Source: Gracilaria domingensis (Eukaryota; Rhodophyta; Florideophyceae; Gracilariales; Gracilariaceae). From it: a DNA stretch of 64,000 bases. The stretch is taken from assembly GCA_022539475.1 (NCBI GenBank), contig VCMS01000038.1, positions 124,001 to 188,000 of the forward strand, in the 5' to 3' direction. Position 1 is the stretch's first letter; every line of letters starts with the position of its first letter. The notes under the pieces are model-generated. The model had not been told where the DNA came from and searched no databases. It saw only the letters and a program-made list of their open reading frames with translations. The position numbers and the translations under genes were made by a program. This document shows, piece by piece, positions 43,698 through 52,662 of the stretch.

Positions 43698-45912
43698 GTT
43701 TTGAGACCCAGGAAAAGTACTGTAGGAGTCGCATTTGTGTCGTGGTGGAACTACGTTTACTGATACAGAAGATATATCTCTCTCGAGATATATATCGTGG
43801 ATATCCTGTATTTGATTTATTAGAGGCGCATATGCGCCTGTCTAGAGCTCCTGCAACTAATCTGGCTCAACGGGGAGATACGCGGTTTAGCAGGTTTACG
43901 CTATCTCGAACAGTACTTAAGTAGAGAGCTAGTTGTCGGTGAACGACTTCACTGTCTTTAATCATCAATAATCTATCTTCTACAATAAAGTATATTCAAC
44001 TCTACGTCGTCTTGCGACTTCTACGCGACACAGCCCCTTCGGGGCCGCTCGTCCGTCTGCGCATGCAGCCCACTCCGCGGCCGCCACTGTGCAACCCCGA
44101 CGCCGTCGGTTCACACAGCCTCACAGGGGCCGCAGGTCCGGACTACGTTGGTTCGTGCTCTAGCTCTGAGAAGAGCCAGAAGGCATGCGCTTCGGAAAGA
44201 TCTCGACAGAGTGTCAATGACATACAGAAGTTTATTGATGAGTTATCCGAACATGTGGAACTTGATGAGATTACAGACTTTATTGAATTGTCAGATCTAA
44301 CGTTAGAGATATTATGTAGGATATCGCTACTTTGAATTGTATGGTTCTGAGGCTCCCTGTACTCAGCTTCTTCACACCTGTGCTGTTTTTAGCAGGGTTT
44401 TACAGTACTACAACTAGCATATAAGGACTACCATTTACGGGTAGATGAGTAAACGTGCCAACTATCCGCCCAGCTTCTCTCCACTACAGCCAGCAGTGGT
44501 AGCATCGCCTCGGGAACGACTCCTGAGGCCCTGCACTTCGACCATGAACGACGAGGATAGTTCAAAGCGTATCCCTCGCTTCAATGCCCGTCGTGGGGAG
44601 GACTTCGTTCTTTGGCAGATGCGATTCGAGGCTCTCCTCCACTCAAAGGAATTACTCTCATCGGTGACAGCGGATCTAATTGGAGAGCGAAGTGAAGAGG
44701 AACTCGAGAACGCCGTCAAGCAGAAGGTTGCAAAGGCACGAATGATTTTAGTGCAAGCCCTGGGAGATAACCCACTCCGTACCATCTCTTCAGACCGCCG
44801 AAACCCTTTCCGAATGTATGAGAAGCTCAAGGAAAGGTACGCGACAGTGAATGCAGCAACCAGAGTACAACTGCAAACGGAACTTCACCAGAAGACTTAC
44901 TCGGAAGCGGTGAGTATGTCCGAGTACATCGATGATATCGAATCAATATTCAGCAGGCTAGAAGCAATAGGCAGCCGTGTCCAGGATTCGATGCAAGTGG
45001 CAATTCTTTTGGCCAGTTTGGAAACGCAAGTGACACGCCGTATGGCCCCGTTATCAGTGCATTACAGACTCTGAAGGAAGACGAGCTGAACTTGGACTTC
45101 GTAACTGCTCGCTTGCTCCAGGAATACAAAACGCGGGAGCTTGGAAAACAGGGTAGAGGTTCCGATGTGACACCAACTGAGGAAAAGGCCCTGAGAAGTA
45201 AGGCTGCAGTACAGTGTTACTACTGTGACAAAGCCGGTCACTATAAACGTGAATGCCCGAAACGGAAGAGTGACATGAAGTCTAAGGGCATCAGGATGGA
45301 TCCCCAGTACGCGCTGATGGTGCGGGAAGGGCAGTCGAGAATCTCATTTGTTGTTGACTCTGGTGCCACGAAGCATATGATGGGTGATTCCGTGTTCAGT
45401 GAAGAGTTTCATTTGCCCGTGCCTGTACTCATTTCCCTTGGAGATGGACGGCAGTTAGTGTCAACAAGAGTTGGAAACTTTGAACTGATCATCAAGTCAC
45501 CATCAGGCAACCAGCTGTTATGCATACCTCTACGAGGGATGTTACTAGTGCCAGAATTGGACGGAAACCTGATATCGTGACGGGCACTAGCACGTTCAGG
45601 CTTCAACACAGTCATCGACCAAAATGGCTGCACACTTTCAGACGGTCATACTCAGGTAAAAATGAAAGGACTTCAGCATGGACTGTATGAGATTCGTGGC
45701 CTTCTTAGACCTTCTGAGGCCCAGTCTGCCCGCACGGCGGCTGTAGGAAGCTCAACTGCAGGATTAGAACTCTGGCACTACCGCTTCGGACACATTGACA
45801 GGAACCGTATCCGCCAGATGAGTACAGAAAGCACTGTCGATGGTCTAGACCTCAACACATCTCCAGATGAGGGCTCACGGTGTGTCCCGTGCACTGAAGG
45901 GAAGATGTCAAG
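43698..45912 (+). repeat. Tandem unit 2 of 2 (2215 bp)
   Basis: Same content and order as unit 1, with the LTR at 44,263-44,492. Unlike unit 1, its integrase continues into the rest of pol. Both units show the same reading pattern, so whatever damage the element has predates the duplication. Confidence 0.9.
44263..44492 (+). repeat. Copia LTR, copy 2
   Basis: 230 bp, identical as read to copy 1, lying 2215 bp further on as part of the tandem unit. Confidence 0.85.
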
Positions 45913-47431
45913 ATTACACCTCCAAGCCCGTATGTCAGAGTTCCTTGAAGTGGGTGAGATAATATTCTCTGACATCTGTGGTCCGCTAAAGACTGCCAGT
46001 ATGGGAGGGAAGAAGTTCTTCATCACGTTTACCGATGGCCGATCCGGGTACCGCGCAGTGTCGTTGCTACGAAAGAGCAGTGAAGCGCTACAAGCCTTTC
46101 GCGACTTCCACATGTTTTTTGAGCGCAGATTCAGGTGTGTTGTGCAGATACTACATTCGGACAATGGATCAGAGTATATCGGAATGCAGAACTACCTGAA
46201 AGAATCTGGCATAGAATGGGAGTCTTCGGCTCCATATACACCCCAGCAGAACGGGGTAGCTGAGAGACTGAACAGGACCCTCATGGACATGGTCCGTTCT
46301 ATGCTCAGCCACGCCGGATTACCTCCAAAGTTTTGGGGAGAAGCCCTCATGACTGCAGTGGCTCTACGTAACCTCACTGGATCTGCAAAGAACAGAGGAC
46401 GGACACCTATTGAGGAACTCACTGGAAGGAAGCCATATGTAGGACACATCAAGATTTTTGGGTGTGAGGTGTGGCTTCACTCGGCTAAGAGATCGAAACT
46501 CGAGCCCAAAGCGAAGAGAGGCATCCTCATGAGATGTCTACCACACCGGAACTACAGGGTTTACCTCATTGACTCCGGGAGAATCACGAAAGTACGCCAT
46601 GCAATTGTGAACGAAACCAAATTCCCGGGAAGGGAGCTCTTCCGAACACAGACAGTGAGTGCTATGACTGTACCAGAGGCCGTAGCGGATGTACTTGAAG
46701 GACCACATACCAACCACACGGGAGAGCCAGGCAATGATTCTCCAGATCTAGGTCCAGTGCAACATGCTACTTCCCAATCTACCCCCACTAACGAGCAAGC
46801 CAGTACCAGTGACTCTGGGGAGATAGATGCAAGCGATGAAGGTGACACTGGCCCGAGAGAGCTTACTGAGTCTGAACTAGAGTTTGTGACACACTATCCC
46901 ATTCGCAGGTACCCAGCGAGAGAGAGAATACCACCGCAAAGATACGAAGCCTCTCGAAAGGCTTCCGTAGGAGACCGAACCAATGATACAGCAATACCGA
47001 GAACAGTTGTAGAAGCATTGAGCTGTGAAGAATCTGAACATTGGAAAGCTGCGATTGACTCAGAGCTTCACACTTTGCGCCAAATCGGTACATGGAAGAA
47101 AGTAAAACTCCGGCCTGGTGCGAAGGTGATACAGTCTAAACTGGTTTTCGCAAAGAAGAAGCTTGCTGATGGGTCTCTGGACAAGTGCAAGGCAAGACTC
47201 GTTGCCAAGGGGTGCCAACAGGGACATGTCGAAAACCTGTTTGCTCCTGTGGTCGACTTTCATAGCGTAAGAGTCGTCATCACTCTCGCAGTGAAGCATG
47301 GGTACACTGTCCATCAGATGGATGTTAAATCGGCTTTCTCAACGGGCGGATGGATGCCGAAGCACATGTGTGTATGCTGCCGCCTGAAGGAATTGACCTC
47401 GGTCTGCAAGAAGGGGAGGCACTCCTTCTGA
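45662..47431 (+). CDS. Copia integrase and start of RT (second element)
   Basis: 589 codons. The integrase zinc finger is LWHYRFGHIDRNRI ... CVPCTEGKMSR. The DDE core has FSDICGPLKTASMGGKKFF, ILHSDNGSEYIG and PQQNGVAERLNRTLMDMV. The C-terminal part includes IKIFGCEVWLH and KAKRGILMRCLPHRNYRV. A Ser/Thr-rich acidic linker follows, then the RT entry (LSCEESEHWKAAIDSELHTL, VIQSKLVFAKKK, VHQMDVKSAF). Pol continues beyond this frame toward the DNA transposon. Confidence 0.88.
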   Translation: MKGLQHGLYEIRGLLRPSEAQSARTAAVGSSTAGLELWHYRFGHIDRNRIRQMSTESTVDGLDLNTSPDEGSRCVPCTEGKMSRLHLQARMSEFLEVGEIIFSDICGPLKTASMGGKKFFITFTDGRSGYRAVSLLRKSSEALQAFRDFHMFFERRFRCVVQILHSDNGSEYIGMQNYLKESGIEWESSAPYTPQQNGVAERLNRTLMDMVRSMLSHAGLPPKFWGEALMTAVALRNLTGSAKNRGRTPIEELTGRKPYVGHIKIFGCEVWLHSAKRSKLEPKAKRGILMRCLPHRNYRVYLIDSGRITKVRHAIVNETKFPGRELFRTQTVSAMTVPEAVADVLEGPHTNHTGEPGNDSPDLGPVQHATSQSTPTNEQASTSDSGEIDASDEGDTGPRELTESELEFVTHYPIRRYPARERIPPQRYEASRKASVGDRTNDTAIPRTVVEALSCEESEHWKAAIDSELHTLRQIGTWKKVKLRPGAKVIQSKLVFAKKKLADGSLDKCKARLVAKGCQQGHVENLFAPVVDFHSVRVVITLAVKHGYTVHQMDVKSAFSTGGWMPKHMCVCCRLKELTSVCKKGRHSF

Positions 47432-47580
47432 GACGCACATTGTACGGACTGAAGAACTCGAATCGAATCTGGGCACAGACATGGAAGTCCTGTTTGCAGA
47501 GCCTTGGGTACAATGCCGCCCGGTCCGAAGAATGTCTTTTCGTGAAGACCGGGGTATGGGGTGTGACTTGGGTCTTGGTG

Positions 47581-48803
47581 CAGGGAATGGTTACAGTTGC
47601 CCGGGCCACTATAAAAAATTATATTACCCCTTTGTCAAGCGCGGCTTACAGGGCGACCATAACGCTTATAGTCGCCCAAGTTCAAAAACTTTTTGCATTC
47701 AATTATTTACAAAAGCATTTGTTCCTCGCCGAAACAGTAGTTCACAGCCGTGCTGTGCACTCCAGACACATGAAAAGCGCGCACGTCTACCTCAGACAAG
47801 ATGAAGGCGGCAAAACTCCTCTTGGGTGACTTCCTTTTCCATACTGCTGTTGCGCGTCCATCGACGGGCAAGTTTGCACCAAAGCGTGTACCATCTTTAC
47901 AAAACAGGTCGATCAAATATTTTTTGAACATTGACCATTAAAAAGAATCTTTGCTTGATTGGAGTATTTAAATGCATTTTAAGACTTACGGTAGTGAGTT
48001 TAGATGGCAAGGGCTCTCGGCTGGGCATTTGCAGCAAACTTCACGTACATGTCTTGAACGCACATCTGAAAGTGTCAAGATGACATTGCAGAATTTACCA
48101 AGAAAAAAAAACTGTTCAAATCCGAGGCCTTCCGTTTGTGAAGCAAACAATAAGAGTACATATGTGGCACTTATTTGTTCTTCATAAAAATATCGAAAGG
48201 CTCGAGAGATAATAATAATGTGCATGCCGCACTTACTGCAAATTGGATGCAAGCTTCGAAGTTCTCGTAGACCATGCTCCGCACTGCTTTTGCGGCGTAT
48301 GACTTAAGCCTGGCAACTTCAATCATGGCCATCAAGCCCGGGAAGGAAGGCTTTTTCCGTAAACTCTCTAAATCACAAACGTATGTCAAAGGTCTCTGAT
48401 TTCACAGTGCTTGCTCTAACCAACCTAAACGCGATCGAGGAACAGGCCACGAGGCGAAGCTCGTTCACATTACATGTTGTAATACATATGTTTGCGTTCA
48501 TGGACGTCGTGAGACGAGGGCCTGGTTCGAAGGGACTGTGGCCCGGTCGCAGCATTCATTCTATAACATTGTAGTTGTTGTGCCCCAATCAGGTTTTAAG
48601 TAATGCGCATAGATTTCAAACTAGCCGTTGCAGTTTGAACGTGGCAAAAGTGCCATTTGGCTGTATCCTACGGCGACATGGTTTAATTCTGTAAAACTCC
48701 TGCTTTTCAGGGCGCATATATCGGTTATATGCGCCCGAAATCTCAGTGCTACCTTGGGGGTGATATAACTGTTATGAGCACCCGGGCGAACATAACCGTA
48801 CCC
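47581..48803. mobile_element. DNA transposon with inverted ends and subterminal hairpins (1223 bp)
   Basis: It splits the copia RT between ...TGGGTCTTGGTG and TATGTAGATGAC. The 7 bp CTTGGTG is duplicated at 47,574-47,580 and 48,804-48,810, and removing one copy restores W-V-L-V-Y-V-D-D. The left end is CAGGGAATGGTTACAG..GCCCGGG; the right end read in reverse is GGGTACGGTTATGTTCGCCCGGG. They match at about 16 of 23 positions. Hairpins beginning GGGC or GGGT and ending GCCC or CACCC lie at 47,651-47,677, 48,710-48,736 and 48,758-48,783. The CAGGG end recalls hAT elements, but these have 8 bp duplications, so the superfamily is open. No transposase is recognised. Confidence 0.8.
47707..48389 (-). 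CDS. Possible intron-containing gene or captured exons inside the DNA transposon
   Basis: The minus strand has protein-like pieces. The first is SLRKKPSFPGLMAMIEVARL to EACIQFA (about 48,365-48,237), ending at GTAAGT (48,236-48,231). Next, after TTGACACTTTCAG, comes VRSRHVREVCCKCPAESPCHL, ending at a second GTAAGT (47,989-47,984). Last is KYLIDLFCKDGTRFGANLPV to about 47,707. Two strong donor sites at ends of plausible exons suggest short introns. The Cys-rich middle piece might bind metal. No family is recognised. It may be a fragment of a host gene carried by the element, its own gene, or chance. Confidence 0.35.
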
Positions 48804-48804
48804 C

Positions 48805-49755
48805 TTGGTGTATGTAGATGACATCTTGATTATTGGTAAGACTGCTGAAAGCCTGAACCAGGTCAAGCCGGAACTGCAGTCTAGTTTTCAGATGACAGAT
48901 TTGGGTGAAGTTAAGTCTTTCTTGGGCGTCGAGTTCAAGCCAATGGCTAGTGAATTTTGTATGAGGCAATCAGGTTTCATCGAGAAGCTGCTGCAAGACA
49001 CTGGCATGGCCCACTCGAAGCCTGTTTCAACACCCATGCTCCCGTACGCTGAAACAGACACACATTCCCCAATTCTGGAAGCAGATACTCATTCATTCTT
49101 TCGTGAAGCACTAGGGTCTCTACTTTACCTTTCATCACGATCGAGGCCAGACATTTCATTTGCGGTTAATACGCTCAGTCGGAGGCAGTTGAACCCAACT
49201 GCTATGGACCTGGTTGCATTGAAGCGAGTTCTGAGGTACCTCCGTGGATCGGTCTTGCTTGGCCTCCCATACGTTGCAATGGAAAAGTCCCTCACACTTA
49301 CTGAATATTGCGACAGTAACTGGGCTAGAGACAGGGTGGACCGGAAGTCTATCACTGGGTTTGCGATATACTTGGACGACTGCTTGGTCTGCTGGAAGAT
49401 GACTAAGCAGAGAAGCATTGCAATGTCGACTTCGGAGGCGGAGTTTATTGCGTTGTCGGACTGTGTTCGTGAAGTTATTTGGTTTCGAAGCCTTCTGCGT
49501 GACCTAGTTGTGCCACAGATGGACCCTACCGTTATCTACGAGGACAATACAGGCGCAATCTGCTGGTCGAATTCGCAGAAACGCGCGAAGCATGTGGATA
49601 TTCGTTTCCATTTTGTCAGAGATGCCGTGGATAAGAAAGAAGTTGCCGTTCTTCACTGCCCAACTGAAAAGATGAAGGCAGACATTTTTACAAAGCCATT
49701 GCTGCCAAAGAGATTCTTGGACTTACGCGCTGCAATTGGACTACAGGAGATCTGA
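48805..49755 (+). CDS. Copia RT end and RNase H (second element)
   Basis: 316 codons beginning within the transposon's right target duplication, at the RT YVDD block (VYVDDILIIGKTAESL). It continues with MTDLGEVKSFLGVEF, SRSRPDISFAVNTLSR and LRYLRGSVLLGL, then RNase H with YCDSNWARDRVDRKSITGF, MSTSEAEFIALSDCVRE, YEDNTGAICW, AKHVDIRFHFVRD and KADIFTKPLLPKRF. It ends just before the polypurine tract and 3' LTR. Confidence 0.9.
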   Translation: MVYVDDILIIGKTAESLNQVKPELQSSFQMTDLGEVKSFLGVEFKPMASEFCMRQSGFIEKLLQDTGMAHSKPVSTPMLPYAETDTHSPILEADTHSFFREALGSLLYLSSRSRPDISFAVNTLSRRQLNPTAMDLVALKRVLRYLRGSVLLGLPYVAMEKSLTLTEYCDSNWARDRVDRKSITGFAIYLDDCLVCWKMTKQRSIAMSTSEAEFIALSDCVREVIWFRSLLRDLVVPQMDPTVIYEDNTGAICWSNSQKRAKHVDIRFHFVRDAVDKKEVAVLHCPTEKMKADIFTKPLLPKRFLDLRAAIGLQEI

Positions 49756-50123: not shown

Positions 50124-50828
50124 ATGAAGGAATGTACGACTATTTCCACACCAATGTTACTAAACTTGCGGTTGACACGAGCGAAAGAATATGCGGCACA
50201 ACTCAAAGTCCCCTACCGAGAACTCGTTGGTTTATTACTCCACTTGGCAAACAATTGTCGCCCTGATATCGTCTTTTGTGTGGGATATCTCTCAAGGTTT
50301 CTGGAAAGGCATGGTAGCCAACACTGGAAGGCTGCAAAACGCGTTCTACGTTATCTGAAAGGCACAAAGCACATGGGTCTCGTTGTCGAAAAGACAGATA
50401 GAGTACTTCGTCGATACTCCGACGCTGATTTTGCACCTTGTGCAGTCGATCGAAAGTCTATCAGTTGCTATTTATTCATGTTTTCTGGTGCTTGTGTGTC
50501 ATGGAGGTCAAAGAAGCAGACTATAGTAACGCAGCCAACAGTGGAGGTGGAGTATGTGGCATTATCATATGCAGTTTTTGAATCGTTATGGCTTCGACAA
50601 CTGTTCAGTGAACTTGGTGTGAACGTTAATGACGGAGTCACTATCTATGGTAACAAGCAAAGGTCATTGTCTTTATCCTGCAAACAGGTATGCAATGAGC
50701 GAACGAATCACATTGATATAAGGTATCATCTTGTTAGTGATCATGTCGAGAAGGACGTAGAGTTGAAGTACTCCCCTAAGGCTTTCATGGCTGTTAGTGC
50801 ATATAAGCGCGTTGTTGTTGTTTTGTGA
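50124..50828 (+). CDS. Copia RT end and RNase H (split copia, right part)
   Basis: The frame starts after the RT catalytic region (TISTPMLLNLRLTRAKEYAA) and covers LVGLLLHLANNCRPDIVFCV, LRYLKGTKHMGLVV, YSDADFAPCAVDRKSISCYL, VEYVALSYAVFESLWLRQL and HIDIRYHLVSDHVEKD. The last dozen codons lie in the LTR of the neighbouring minus-strand copia, so the copia proper ends at 50,791. Confidence 0.8.
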   Translation: MKECTTISTPMLLNLRLTRAKEYAAQLKVPYRELVGLLLHLANNCRPDIVFCVGYLSRFLERHGSQHWKAAKRVLRYLKGTKHMGLVVEKTDRVLRRYSDADFAPCAVDRKSISCYLFMFSGACVSWRSKKQTIVTQPTVEVEYVALSYAVFESLWLRQLFSELGVNVNDGVTIYGNKQRSLSLSCKQVCNERTNHIDIRYHLVSDHVEKDVELKYSPKAFMAVSAYKRVVVVL

Positions 50829-51069: not shown

Positions 51070-52662
51070 TCAATGACTGCTTGGAAGTATAAAGAGAGTT
51101 CTTCTGTGCTTTTCAAATTCTATCCCAGTCAAGGCCTTTGTGAAACAGTCAGCAACATTGTCCTTTGTACTTGTATACAAGACAGCGACTCGTTTCTCGA
51201 GGACAGCGTCTTTGACAAAGTAGAACTTTAGGGCAACATGTCGAACCTTCCGTAGACGACCTTCCTCATTGCACCACGAAATAGATCCGAGATTATCTTG
51301 AAATATAGGCGTCGGCTCTGCTGCCTCGATCCCCATCTCAAACATTATGTCCCGAATCCACAAAACATCCTTGATACATTCCGCAAGCGCGTAAAATTCA
51401 GCTTCTGGTGTTGAGAGTGCGACGGCGGTTTGAACTGTAGACCGCCACCAGAATGGAATATCACCCAAAAACAGAACGTATCCACTTCTTGATTTCCTTC
51501 CATCAATGTCACGTCCCCAATCTGAATCACAGTATGCGCTCAGAACCGGTACTGAGGGCTTGATTGCTAGGCCATAATTTAACGTACCTTTCAAATATCG
51601 CAAGACATGTTTCATAGTATTCCAATGGCTCGGACTTGGGGAGGAACTGAACTTTCCGAGCATAGAAACTGCGGTTGCCAAGTCGGATCGTGTGCGAGTG
51701 CTGAGAAATAGAAGGGAACCTAAAATAGACCTGTATGGAATTGACTGCATCTTGGTAGCATCTATTTCGTCCAGTTGCTGCTTTGGCTCATAAAGATTGT
51801 GTCCAAGTGGCAACGGGTACTTCGTAGGTTTTGCAGTTTCCATTCGGGCATCTCTAAGAATTTTCTCCACAAGAGGTCTTTGATGCAGCAGTAGGCCATC
51901 TTCAAAATGCGAGATTGAAACACCCAGGTAAAGTTCCGCGCAACCTAGATCCTGAAGTCGAAATGCGTCTTTGAAGCAAAATTTGATTTTCATTACTGCA
52001 AAGCGTGTCCCAAAGAAAACTATATCATCAACGTATACCAGTGCATAAAAAATGTCATTTCCACTTCGAGAAATAAAGATGCATTCACACGAGCGTAGTT
52101 GTGTAAATCCTTTGGACTTCAGAAATAAAGAAAGATACCGAAACCATAGTTGCGGTGCTTGCCGGATTCCGTATAGAGATTTGTTCAATTTTACAACCCG
52201 TCCATCAGCCTCCGGGACTCCTGGAACTTTTGGAAATCGTATCCATATGTCGACGCCTGGTGGTAGGAGGGCATGTAAGAAAGCAGCTCCGATGTCAATG
52301 TGATATCGTACCCAGTTTCGGTGTAAGCTAGGAATTAAGAGGAAGAGAAATAAATAGAACGGTAGAACAGGAGAAGAGTAGTTTGACGAAGCTTCGGGCT
52401 TCTGAAACTTGCCTCTAGCGACAAGACGAGCTTTGAATCGAGCCGGCTTCCCGTTTTCATCACGTTTGAGCTTCAGAATGACTCCAATATGTAACGGTTT
52501 CTCAGTTGGCGGCTGAGATATATCAGAATAAGTGTTGTTCTCTTTCAGGGTTTTAAATTCTTCCTCGATTGCGTCTCTCCAAAACGACGCTTCGATGGAC
52601 TTTAAAGCTTCTCGTAGCTTACGGTCGTCAGATGTGGTAATATCGTAGGGTAGATGCCGCAT
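51070..52662 (-). CDS. Copia RT and RNase H
   Basis: 530 codons, open throughout. RT motifs: LKLKRDENGKPARFKARLVA, YHIDIGAAFLHALLPPGVDI, KLNKSLYGIRQAPQLWFRYL, ALVYVDDIVFFGT, LQDLGCAELYLGVSI, SRTRSDLATAVSMLGKF is seen with T for S, and LRYLKGTLNYGLAI. RNase H: SAYCDSDWGRDIDGRKSRSG, LSTPEAEFYALAECIKDVLW, FQDNLGSISWCNE, RHVALKFYFVKDAV and DNVADCFTKAL. Belongs to the minus-strand copia. Confidence 0.92.
   Translation of the reverse strand: MRHLPYDITTSDDRKLREALKSIEASFWRDAIEEEFKTLKENNTYSDISQPPTEKPLHIGVILKLKRDENGKPARFKARLVARGKFQKPEASSNYSSPVLPFYLFLFLLIPSLHRNWVRYHIDIGAAFLHALLPPGVDIWIRFPKVPGVPEADGRVVKLNKSLYGIRQAPQLWFRYLSLFLKSKGFTQLRSCECIFISRSGNDIFYALVYVDDIVFFGTRFAVMKIKFCFKDAFRLQDLGCAELYLGVSISHFEDGLLLHQRPLVEKILRDARMETAKPTKYPLPLGHNLYEPKQQLDEIDATKMQSIPYRSILGSLLFLSTRTRSDLATAVSMLGKFSSSPSPSHWNTMKHVLRYLKGTLNYGLAIKPSVPVLSAYCDSDWGRDIDGRKSRSGYVLFLGDIPFWWRSTVQTAVALSTPEAEFYALAECIKDVLWIRDIMFEMGIEAAEPTPIFQDNLGSISWCNEEGRLRKVRHVALKFYFVKDAVLEKRVAVLYTSTKDNVADCFTKALTGIEFEKHRRTLFILPSSH

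Follow-up and report, generated by a model that had tools for sequence, protein, structure and literature searches.

A probable non-autonomous Mutator-like element with palindrome-bearing ends in a copia-like gene of Gracilaria domingensis

A copia-like reverse transcriptase (RT) gene of the red alga Gracilaria domingensis is interrupted by an insertion with palindromes near both ends, which raises the question of what kind of element this is and how its palindromes should be read. An earlier note on the 64-kb stretch of DNA that holds the locus (the window; GC 45-51%) had proposed a DNA transposon with hairpin-decorated ends that fitted no superfamily it could name with confidence. Our analysis indicates, with a probability of about 0.88, that the element is a non-autonomous Mutator-like element (MULE), cut and pasted by the MULE transposase of an autonomous relative.

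Insertion site, boundaries and end anatomy

The insertion splits a copia-like RT frame after the codons for ...W-V-L-V and immediately before those for Tyr-Val-Asp-Asp (Y-V-D-D; junction codons TTG GTG / TAT GTA GAT GAC), and the copia-like polyprotein resumes with VYVDDIL... in the ORF at 48805-49755. Judged by the motifs in its open reading frames (ORFs), the interrupted host is a copia-like retrotransposon. Two more copia-like pol fragments, also recognised by motif reading, adjoin it at 51070-52662 (minus strand) and 50124-50828 (plus strand), the one on the opposite strand being a long open frame with its own YVDD motif. The features at the insertion site are the following.

45662..47573, plus strand: upstream portion of the interrupted copia-like polyprotein, divided between two frames that overlap (45662-47431 and 47350-47829), from the ORF list
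47574..47582, no strand: left copy of the target-site duplication (TSD), CTTGGTGCA, with a T to C change at base 8, from the empty sites in 3/3 copia relatives
47583..48803, no strand: the element, a probable 1221-bp non-autonomous Mutator-like transposon, exact span from the gap-free 99% alignment to the copy on contig C74
48804..48812, no strand: right copy of the TSD, CTTGGTGTA, from the empty sites in 3/3 copia relatives

The genome searched comprised 77.9 Mb in 680 contigs, in which the window is C38:124001-188000. Four matches were obtained with the right flank as query, the window's own included, and the other three, all uninterrupted copia relatives, read GGGTCCTGGTGTATG straight through the site, giving the empty-site reading GGGTCCTGGTGTATGTGGATGAC. 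The TSD of the window element was 9 bp, CTTGGTGCA/CTTGGTGTA, with one mismatch (8/9). Because the last two bases of the right copy are TA, matching all three relatives, the change sits in the left copy, and from the sequence it is read as later than the insertion. The CTTGGTG repeats previously seen to bound the insert at 47574-48810 do so, and its inverted ends were confirmed; the duplication, first taken as 7 bp, is longer, and since the empty sites show a 9-bp repeat, the leading "CA" of the CAGGG start then proposed is target DNA.

A near-identical copy was found at C74:55870-57090 (1210/1221 bases identical, 99%, gap-free, with 11 differences). Its first and last bases coincide with those of the window element, so that the ends were fixed independently: the element, GGGAATGG...CCGTACCC, begins with GGG at 47583 and measures 1221 bp instead of 1223 bp. 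Comparison of the flanks of the C74 copy revealed no recognisable TSD, and a search of the genome via both flanks found no empty site for it. Its left flank consists of a repeat, present elsewhere too, whose limit is about 30 bp short of the element, given which the site may have been rearranged; the right flank had one weak partial match elsewhere only.

The ends are built from short modules.

47583..47602, plus strand: left terminal module, GGGAATGGTTACAGTTGCCC
47603..47630, no strand: left P2 module, palindromic over 28 bp with 9/14 pairs, directly adjoining the terminal module
47651..47677, no strand: left palindromic module P3, GGGCGACCATAACGCTTATAGTCGCCC, 11/13 pairs
47678..48709, no strand: interior, from frame, Pfam and DNA searches
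48710..48736, no strand: right palindromic module P3, 12/13 pairs
48757..48783, no strand: right P2 module, 27 bp, weakly palindromic with 8/13 pairs in the register used
48784..48803, minus strand: right terminal module, minus-strand sequence GGGTACGGTTATGTTCGCCC

Reading inward, each end has a 20-bp terminal module and, abutting it, a P2 of 27-28 bp that is edged by GGG...CCC and has a core resembling ATAA...TTAT. A spacer of 20 bp separates P2 from the 27-bp P3, which begins at base 69 on the left and base 68 on the right, in mirrored positions. The hairpin motif had been counted twice on the left and three times on the right, but the arrangement is symmetric, with a terminal module, a weak P2 and a strong P3 at each end. 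The two terminal modules share 14 of their 20 bases. Terminal inverted repeats (TIRs) are present as inverted modules of 20-23 bp, without a long uniform TIR; a 30-bp inverted pair (73%) also appeared in the self-comparison. In the right terminal module, the inner stretch (GGTTATGTTCGCCC) resembles a palindrome arm following GGGTAC, that is, a half-module.

The strong subterminal palindromes described earlier were borne out, the two P3 modules being the sole 27-mers with at least 11/13 symmetric pairs in the 64-kb window. At least one such 27-mer occurred in 15 of 1000 dinucleotide shuffles of the element, and two in none of the 1000. The exact ends, the C74 copy, the three empty sites out of three and the P3 statistics together uphold the view of a DNA transposon with palindrome-bearing ends in a copia RT gene.

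Copies, relatives and the source of transposase

Frames lying wholly inside the element reach 88 aa at most, and a Pfam scan of six small ORFs gave no match. A DNA search of the genome with the whole element matched its interior to nothing further except the C74 copy, and neither this search nor the Pfam scan of the six ORFs revealed a host-gene fragment in the interior. By these measures (longest inner frame, 88 aa; Pfam on six ORFs) the element does not encode a recognisable transposase, and having no recognisable coding capacity it is non-autonomous.

A degenerate end pattern, composed after the first ends had been seen, matched 54 genome sites (27+27) with at most one mismatch, and the reversed control pattern matched four. 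The sequence around the ends was read for 30 of the 54 sites plus some others. Paired ends bracketed the MULE domain PF10551 at four loci, and single ends adjoined it at C21, C191, C114 and C110. The four pairs were these.

C17:223505-231909: element of 8405 bp with a 9-bp TSD, read whole, PF10551 inside
C137:71276-79762: paired ends, PF10551 inside
C172:25052-33483: paired ends, PF10551 inside
C326:37535-50703: ends 13.2 kb apart, PF10551 inside

Full-length relatives bearing PF10551 measured about 8.4-8.5 kb, the C326 pair excepted; its 13.2-kb distance suggests that an autonomous copy there probably contains a nested insertion. The C17 element holds a 502-aa frame with PF10551 (34.8 bits against a cut-off of 27.6) and, after it on the same strand, one of 936 aa that carries a SWIM finger, whose score of 20.6 exceeds its cut-off of 19.6 by only 1 bit, and an Ulp1/C48 peptidase (Peptidase_C48, 7.2e-15); in the scan of these two frames the MULE, SWIM and C48 domains were above cut-off. 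At C326 an open frame of 1483 aa is reported for the MULE match as well as for the C48 match, so the two domains are probably in one polypeptide and an undivided MULE-C48 protein probably exists there. C17-type transposases were found at ten loci (15 matches, grouped by hand), six of them 99-100% identical. A family end was present at eight of the ten, with none listed at C137:255518 and C42.

A similar order of modules recurs across divergent families of this one genome. Tandem, abutting palindromes of 26-28 bp with a pitch of about 27 bp characterise the C39, C120, C60, C272 and C293 types, and a spacer between modules, as in the window element (20 bp between P2 and P3), is found in C17, C74b and C326b. 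Some ends, for example those at C124, C134 and C114, have weak modules only. At C225:79732-79796 only 65 bp hold two family ends in facing orientation, which could be an extremely small element or the product of a rearrangement. At C272:34903-35781 a C48 match containing one stop follows a family end within about 0.4 kb and likely represents what is left of another Ulp1-bearing lineage. Matches to CGGTACGGTTGTTGTCACCC from the end search were not counted; they look like an unrelated, high-copy and very uniform repeat, the loci read having near-identical flanks on both sides without modules.

Ten elements were read at both ends, of which seven had a TSD of 9-12 bp, one had a 12-bp TSD with an indel and two had none.

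C17: TSD 9/9
C137: TSD 9/9
C172: TSD 10/10
C39: TSD 12/12
C120: TSD 12/12
C326b (C326:73744-75418): TSD 11/12
C38 (window element): TSD 8/9
C60: TSD of 12 bp with a 2-base indel
C74, C46: no TSD

The 12-bp length was seen in four of the eight duplication-bearing elements (C39, C120, C326b and, with the indel, C60). The range described for MULEs in PMC6446971 is 8-11 bp, which places the 12-bp TSDs slightly outside it. The elements at C39:81700-84400, C120:238300-240900 and C60 are relatives of 2.0-2.3 kb that combine abutting palindromes with 12-bp TSDs (C60 with its indel).

Since the same end design brackets MULE-encoding relatives with TSDs of 9-12 bp, the window element is assigned to the Mutator-like transposons as a non-autonomous member, and the superfamily that the earlier note could not name is supplied by these relatives. 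The PF10551 domain on which the class rests is carried by the relatives sharing the ends and not by the 1221-bp element itself. A hAT element, with a CAGGG start, an 8-bp duplication and subterminal repeats, was also considered, as the apparent CAGGG at 47581 resembles hAT ends. Its CA, however, is target DNA, the C74 copy begins at GGG, the empty sites show a repeat of 9 bp and not 8 bp, and the relatives combine 9-12-bp TSDs with a MULE domain, making a hAT origin very improbable.

The search of the genome for further copies and for a longer relative encoding a transposase, as the earlier note had advised, succeeded in part: it yielded the 99% copy on C74, the absence of which would have spoken against the proposal, and MULE-encoding relatives whose TSDs were 9-12 bp instead of 8 bp; it yielded neither 7-bp TSDs nor an autonomous element of the same subfamily. 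Specifically, no autonomous element with GGGAATGG/GGGTACGG-type ends of this exact subfamily was found in the genome, and none of 13 subfamily-end sites had a PF10551 match within 30 kb on the same contig. A further MULE, at C21:295976 and some 6 kb inward of an end, is absent from the C17-type transposase matches and had no end-like match within 1.5 kb on either side. Each terminal module of the window element agrees with the left one of C17 at only 15 of 20 bases.

The finding of two full copies only (window and C74), together with the missing partner transposase of the same subfamily, would suit a dead derivative whose palindromes are relics of array expansion without present function. The two copies, however, differ at only 11 of 1221 bases, all four of their P3 modules are unchanged, and transposases of a related family are 99-100% identical at six loci, so that we regard this explanation as doubtful. 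That the element moves by cut and paste, with a MULE transposase supplied in trans, is well supported by the ends, the TSD, the relatives and the absence of recognisable coding capacity.

Palindromic modules as putative binding sites

The palindromes could alternatively act during transposition as DNA hairpins or cruciforms, and not as double-stranded binding sites. Strong predicted folds point in this direction, both P3 modules forming stable single-strand hairpins (z -4.2 and -4.9), and the right 100 bp folding better than 200 of 200 shuffles (z -4.4). On the other hand, the left 100 bp taken as a unit folded no better than shuffles (z -1.2; 20/200 as good).

The pairing of module arms was compared with that in reshuffled sets, all of which retained related sequences, with reshuffles that ignore kinship. 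The first arm test gave 161/295 pairs against 106.0 expected and 149.1 when reshuffled within ends (199/20000 as good), a result biased upward because module length was chosen by pairing and only modules of at least six pairs were kept; 10 of 38 ends had been dropped by eye as near-duplicates. After collapsing, the P2 set went from 38 to 22 and the inner modules from 38 to 24. In the 24 non-redundant inner modules, some of them misregistered by the edge rule, the arms paired at 115/240 positions against 95.6 expected, with 47/20000 reshuffles as good over pairs 4-13 and 308/20000 over pairs 4-8. In the P2 modules, arm pairing was 98/220 against 90.2 expected and was not significant over pairs 4-13 (1969/20000 reshuffles as good), 4-8 (3242) or 9-12 (4404). 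The P2 arms pair no better than reshuffled ones, and their symmetry is therefore that of a shared consensus and not of independent covariation.

Among 48 inner half-sites, the outer GGG was nearly constant (44, 42 and 46 of 48) and the next base was mostly C (27/48), with T in 32, A or T in 40, T in 36 and A in 39 at positions 8 to 11. Such a pattern is consistent with a protein-binding site that is symmetric and whose half-sites have part of their sequence in common. The arm matching left over in individual modules could reflect structure, copying of a gene-conversion type, or co-evolution with different transposases.

Arm co-variation in the inner modules would be expected of functional hairpins, but it was absent from the P2 modules, and symmetric protein sites would give the same signal. 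Half-sites sharing GGG outside and T-W-T-A inside are, moreover, what a protein-binding motif should look like, so that a hairpin role is unlikely. The palindromic modules are best read as putative sites of symmetric form at which the transposase would bind, and the terminal module resembles one half of such a site.

Taken with the MULE assignment, these observations suggest a scheme in which the MULE transposase of an autonomous relative would act in trans on the element ends, binding the 27-bp palindromic modules as a symmetric, possibly dimeric, unit. The 20-bp terminal module would be half of a palindromic module placed beside the cleavage site, and staggered joining to target DNA would produce the TSD of 9-12 bp. 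We propose more tentatively that this lineage might use a MULE-SWIM-Ulp1 fusion transposase whose dimers recognise the arrayed 27-bp palindromes of the ends, with half a palindrome (GGGTA plus a half-site) at the cleaved terminus and a wide joining stagger of up to 12 bp.

Comparison with known systems

The window insertion is hereby resolved as a member of a known superfamily. MULEs commonly end in long inverted repeats, where binding sites do not stand out. The elements studied here have short ends made of modules, which recur in several divergent families, so that end recognition can be tested module by module, and a natural series with differing numbers of modules is available in one genome. 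The relatives further provide 12-bp TSDs and a MULE whose Ulp1 domain is encoded in the same direction.

MULEs in general are matched in the PF10551 and SWIM domains of a relative, the 9-bp TSD and the occurrence of non-autonomous derivatives. They differ in that four of eight TSDs here are 12 bp, outside the limits given in PMC6446971, and in that a short 20-bp terminal module with palindromic modules takes the place of a long TIR. Among the red algae, MULE-Cc of Rhodophyta (PMC6446971) are likewise SWIM-bearing, one group having a 9-bp TSD, whereas their TIRs are given as 192-640 bp; this comparison is by published description.

Muta1 of Aedes aegypti is described in PMC5225508 with a 10-bp imperfect terminal palindrome, 12-bp subterminal repeats, a TSD of 8-9 bp and more than 300 putative non-autonomous derivatives. 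Its subterminal repeats are 12-bp tandem units, in contrast to the palindromes of 26-28 bp and the longer terminal module found here. Tm1 of Meloidogyne, a Phantom-like MULE with composite foldback-type ends and mostly 9-bp TSDs (PMC3169594), resembles the window element in its MULE identity, composite ends and 9-bp TSD; its ends, however, consist of 13-15-bp tandem repeats, and the histone hairpin that it contains is found between the inverted repeats and not in end modules. ATon, also of Aedes aegypti, which is compared with Helitrons and MITEs in PMC3422177, is similar in being non-autonomous and in having, in one family, a putative stem-loop near each end, but it has TA at its target site instead of a 9-bp TSD.

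MULEs bearing ULP1 have been described in plants (PMC2528002), and the Kaonashi elements or KI-MULEs share with the present relatives an Ulp1-type peptidase domain (PMC2528002, PMC13317346), the precise function of which is given as unknown in PMC13317346. KI-MULEs are described as non-TIR elements with the ULP domain in reverse orientation (PMC2528002, PMC13317346), whereas the ends here are TIR-like and MULE and C48 share one orientation in both C17 and C326, the latter apparently with a single frame for the two. An ULP1 domain in the same direction is reported for some grapevine MULE families (PMC2528002).

Among the papers listed that join Mutator or transposon ends with palindromes or hairpins, no title or abstract opening named arrays of 27-bp palindromes in MULEs, which falls short of establishing their absence in print, and no paper was found for the combination of Gracilaria with MuDR. 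Compared with the systems described above, the palindrome arrays and the 12-bp TSDs are a modest departure from the known MULE type.
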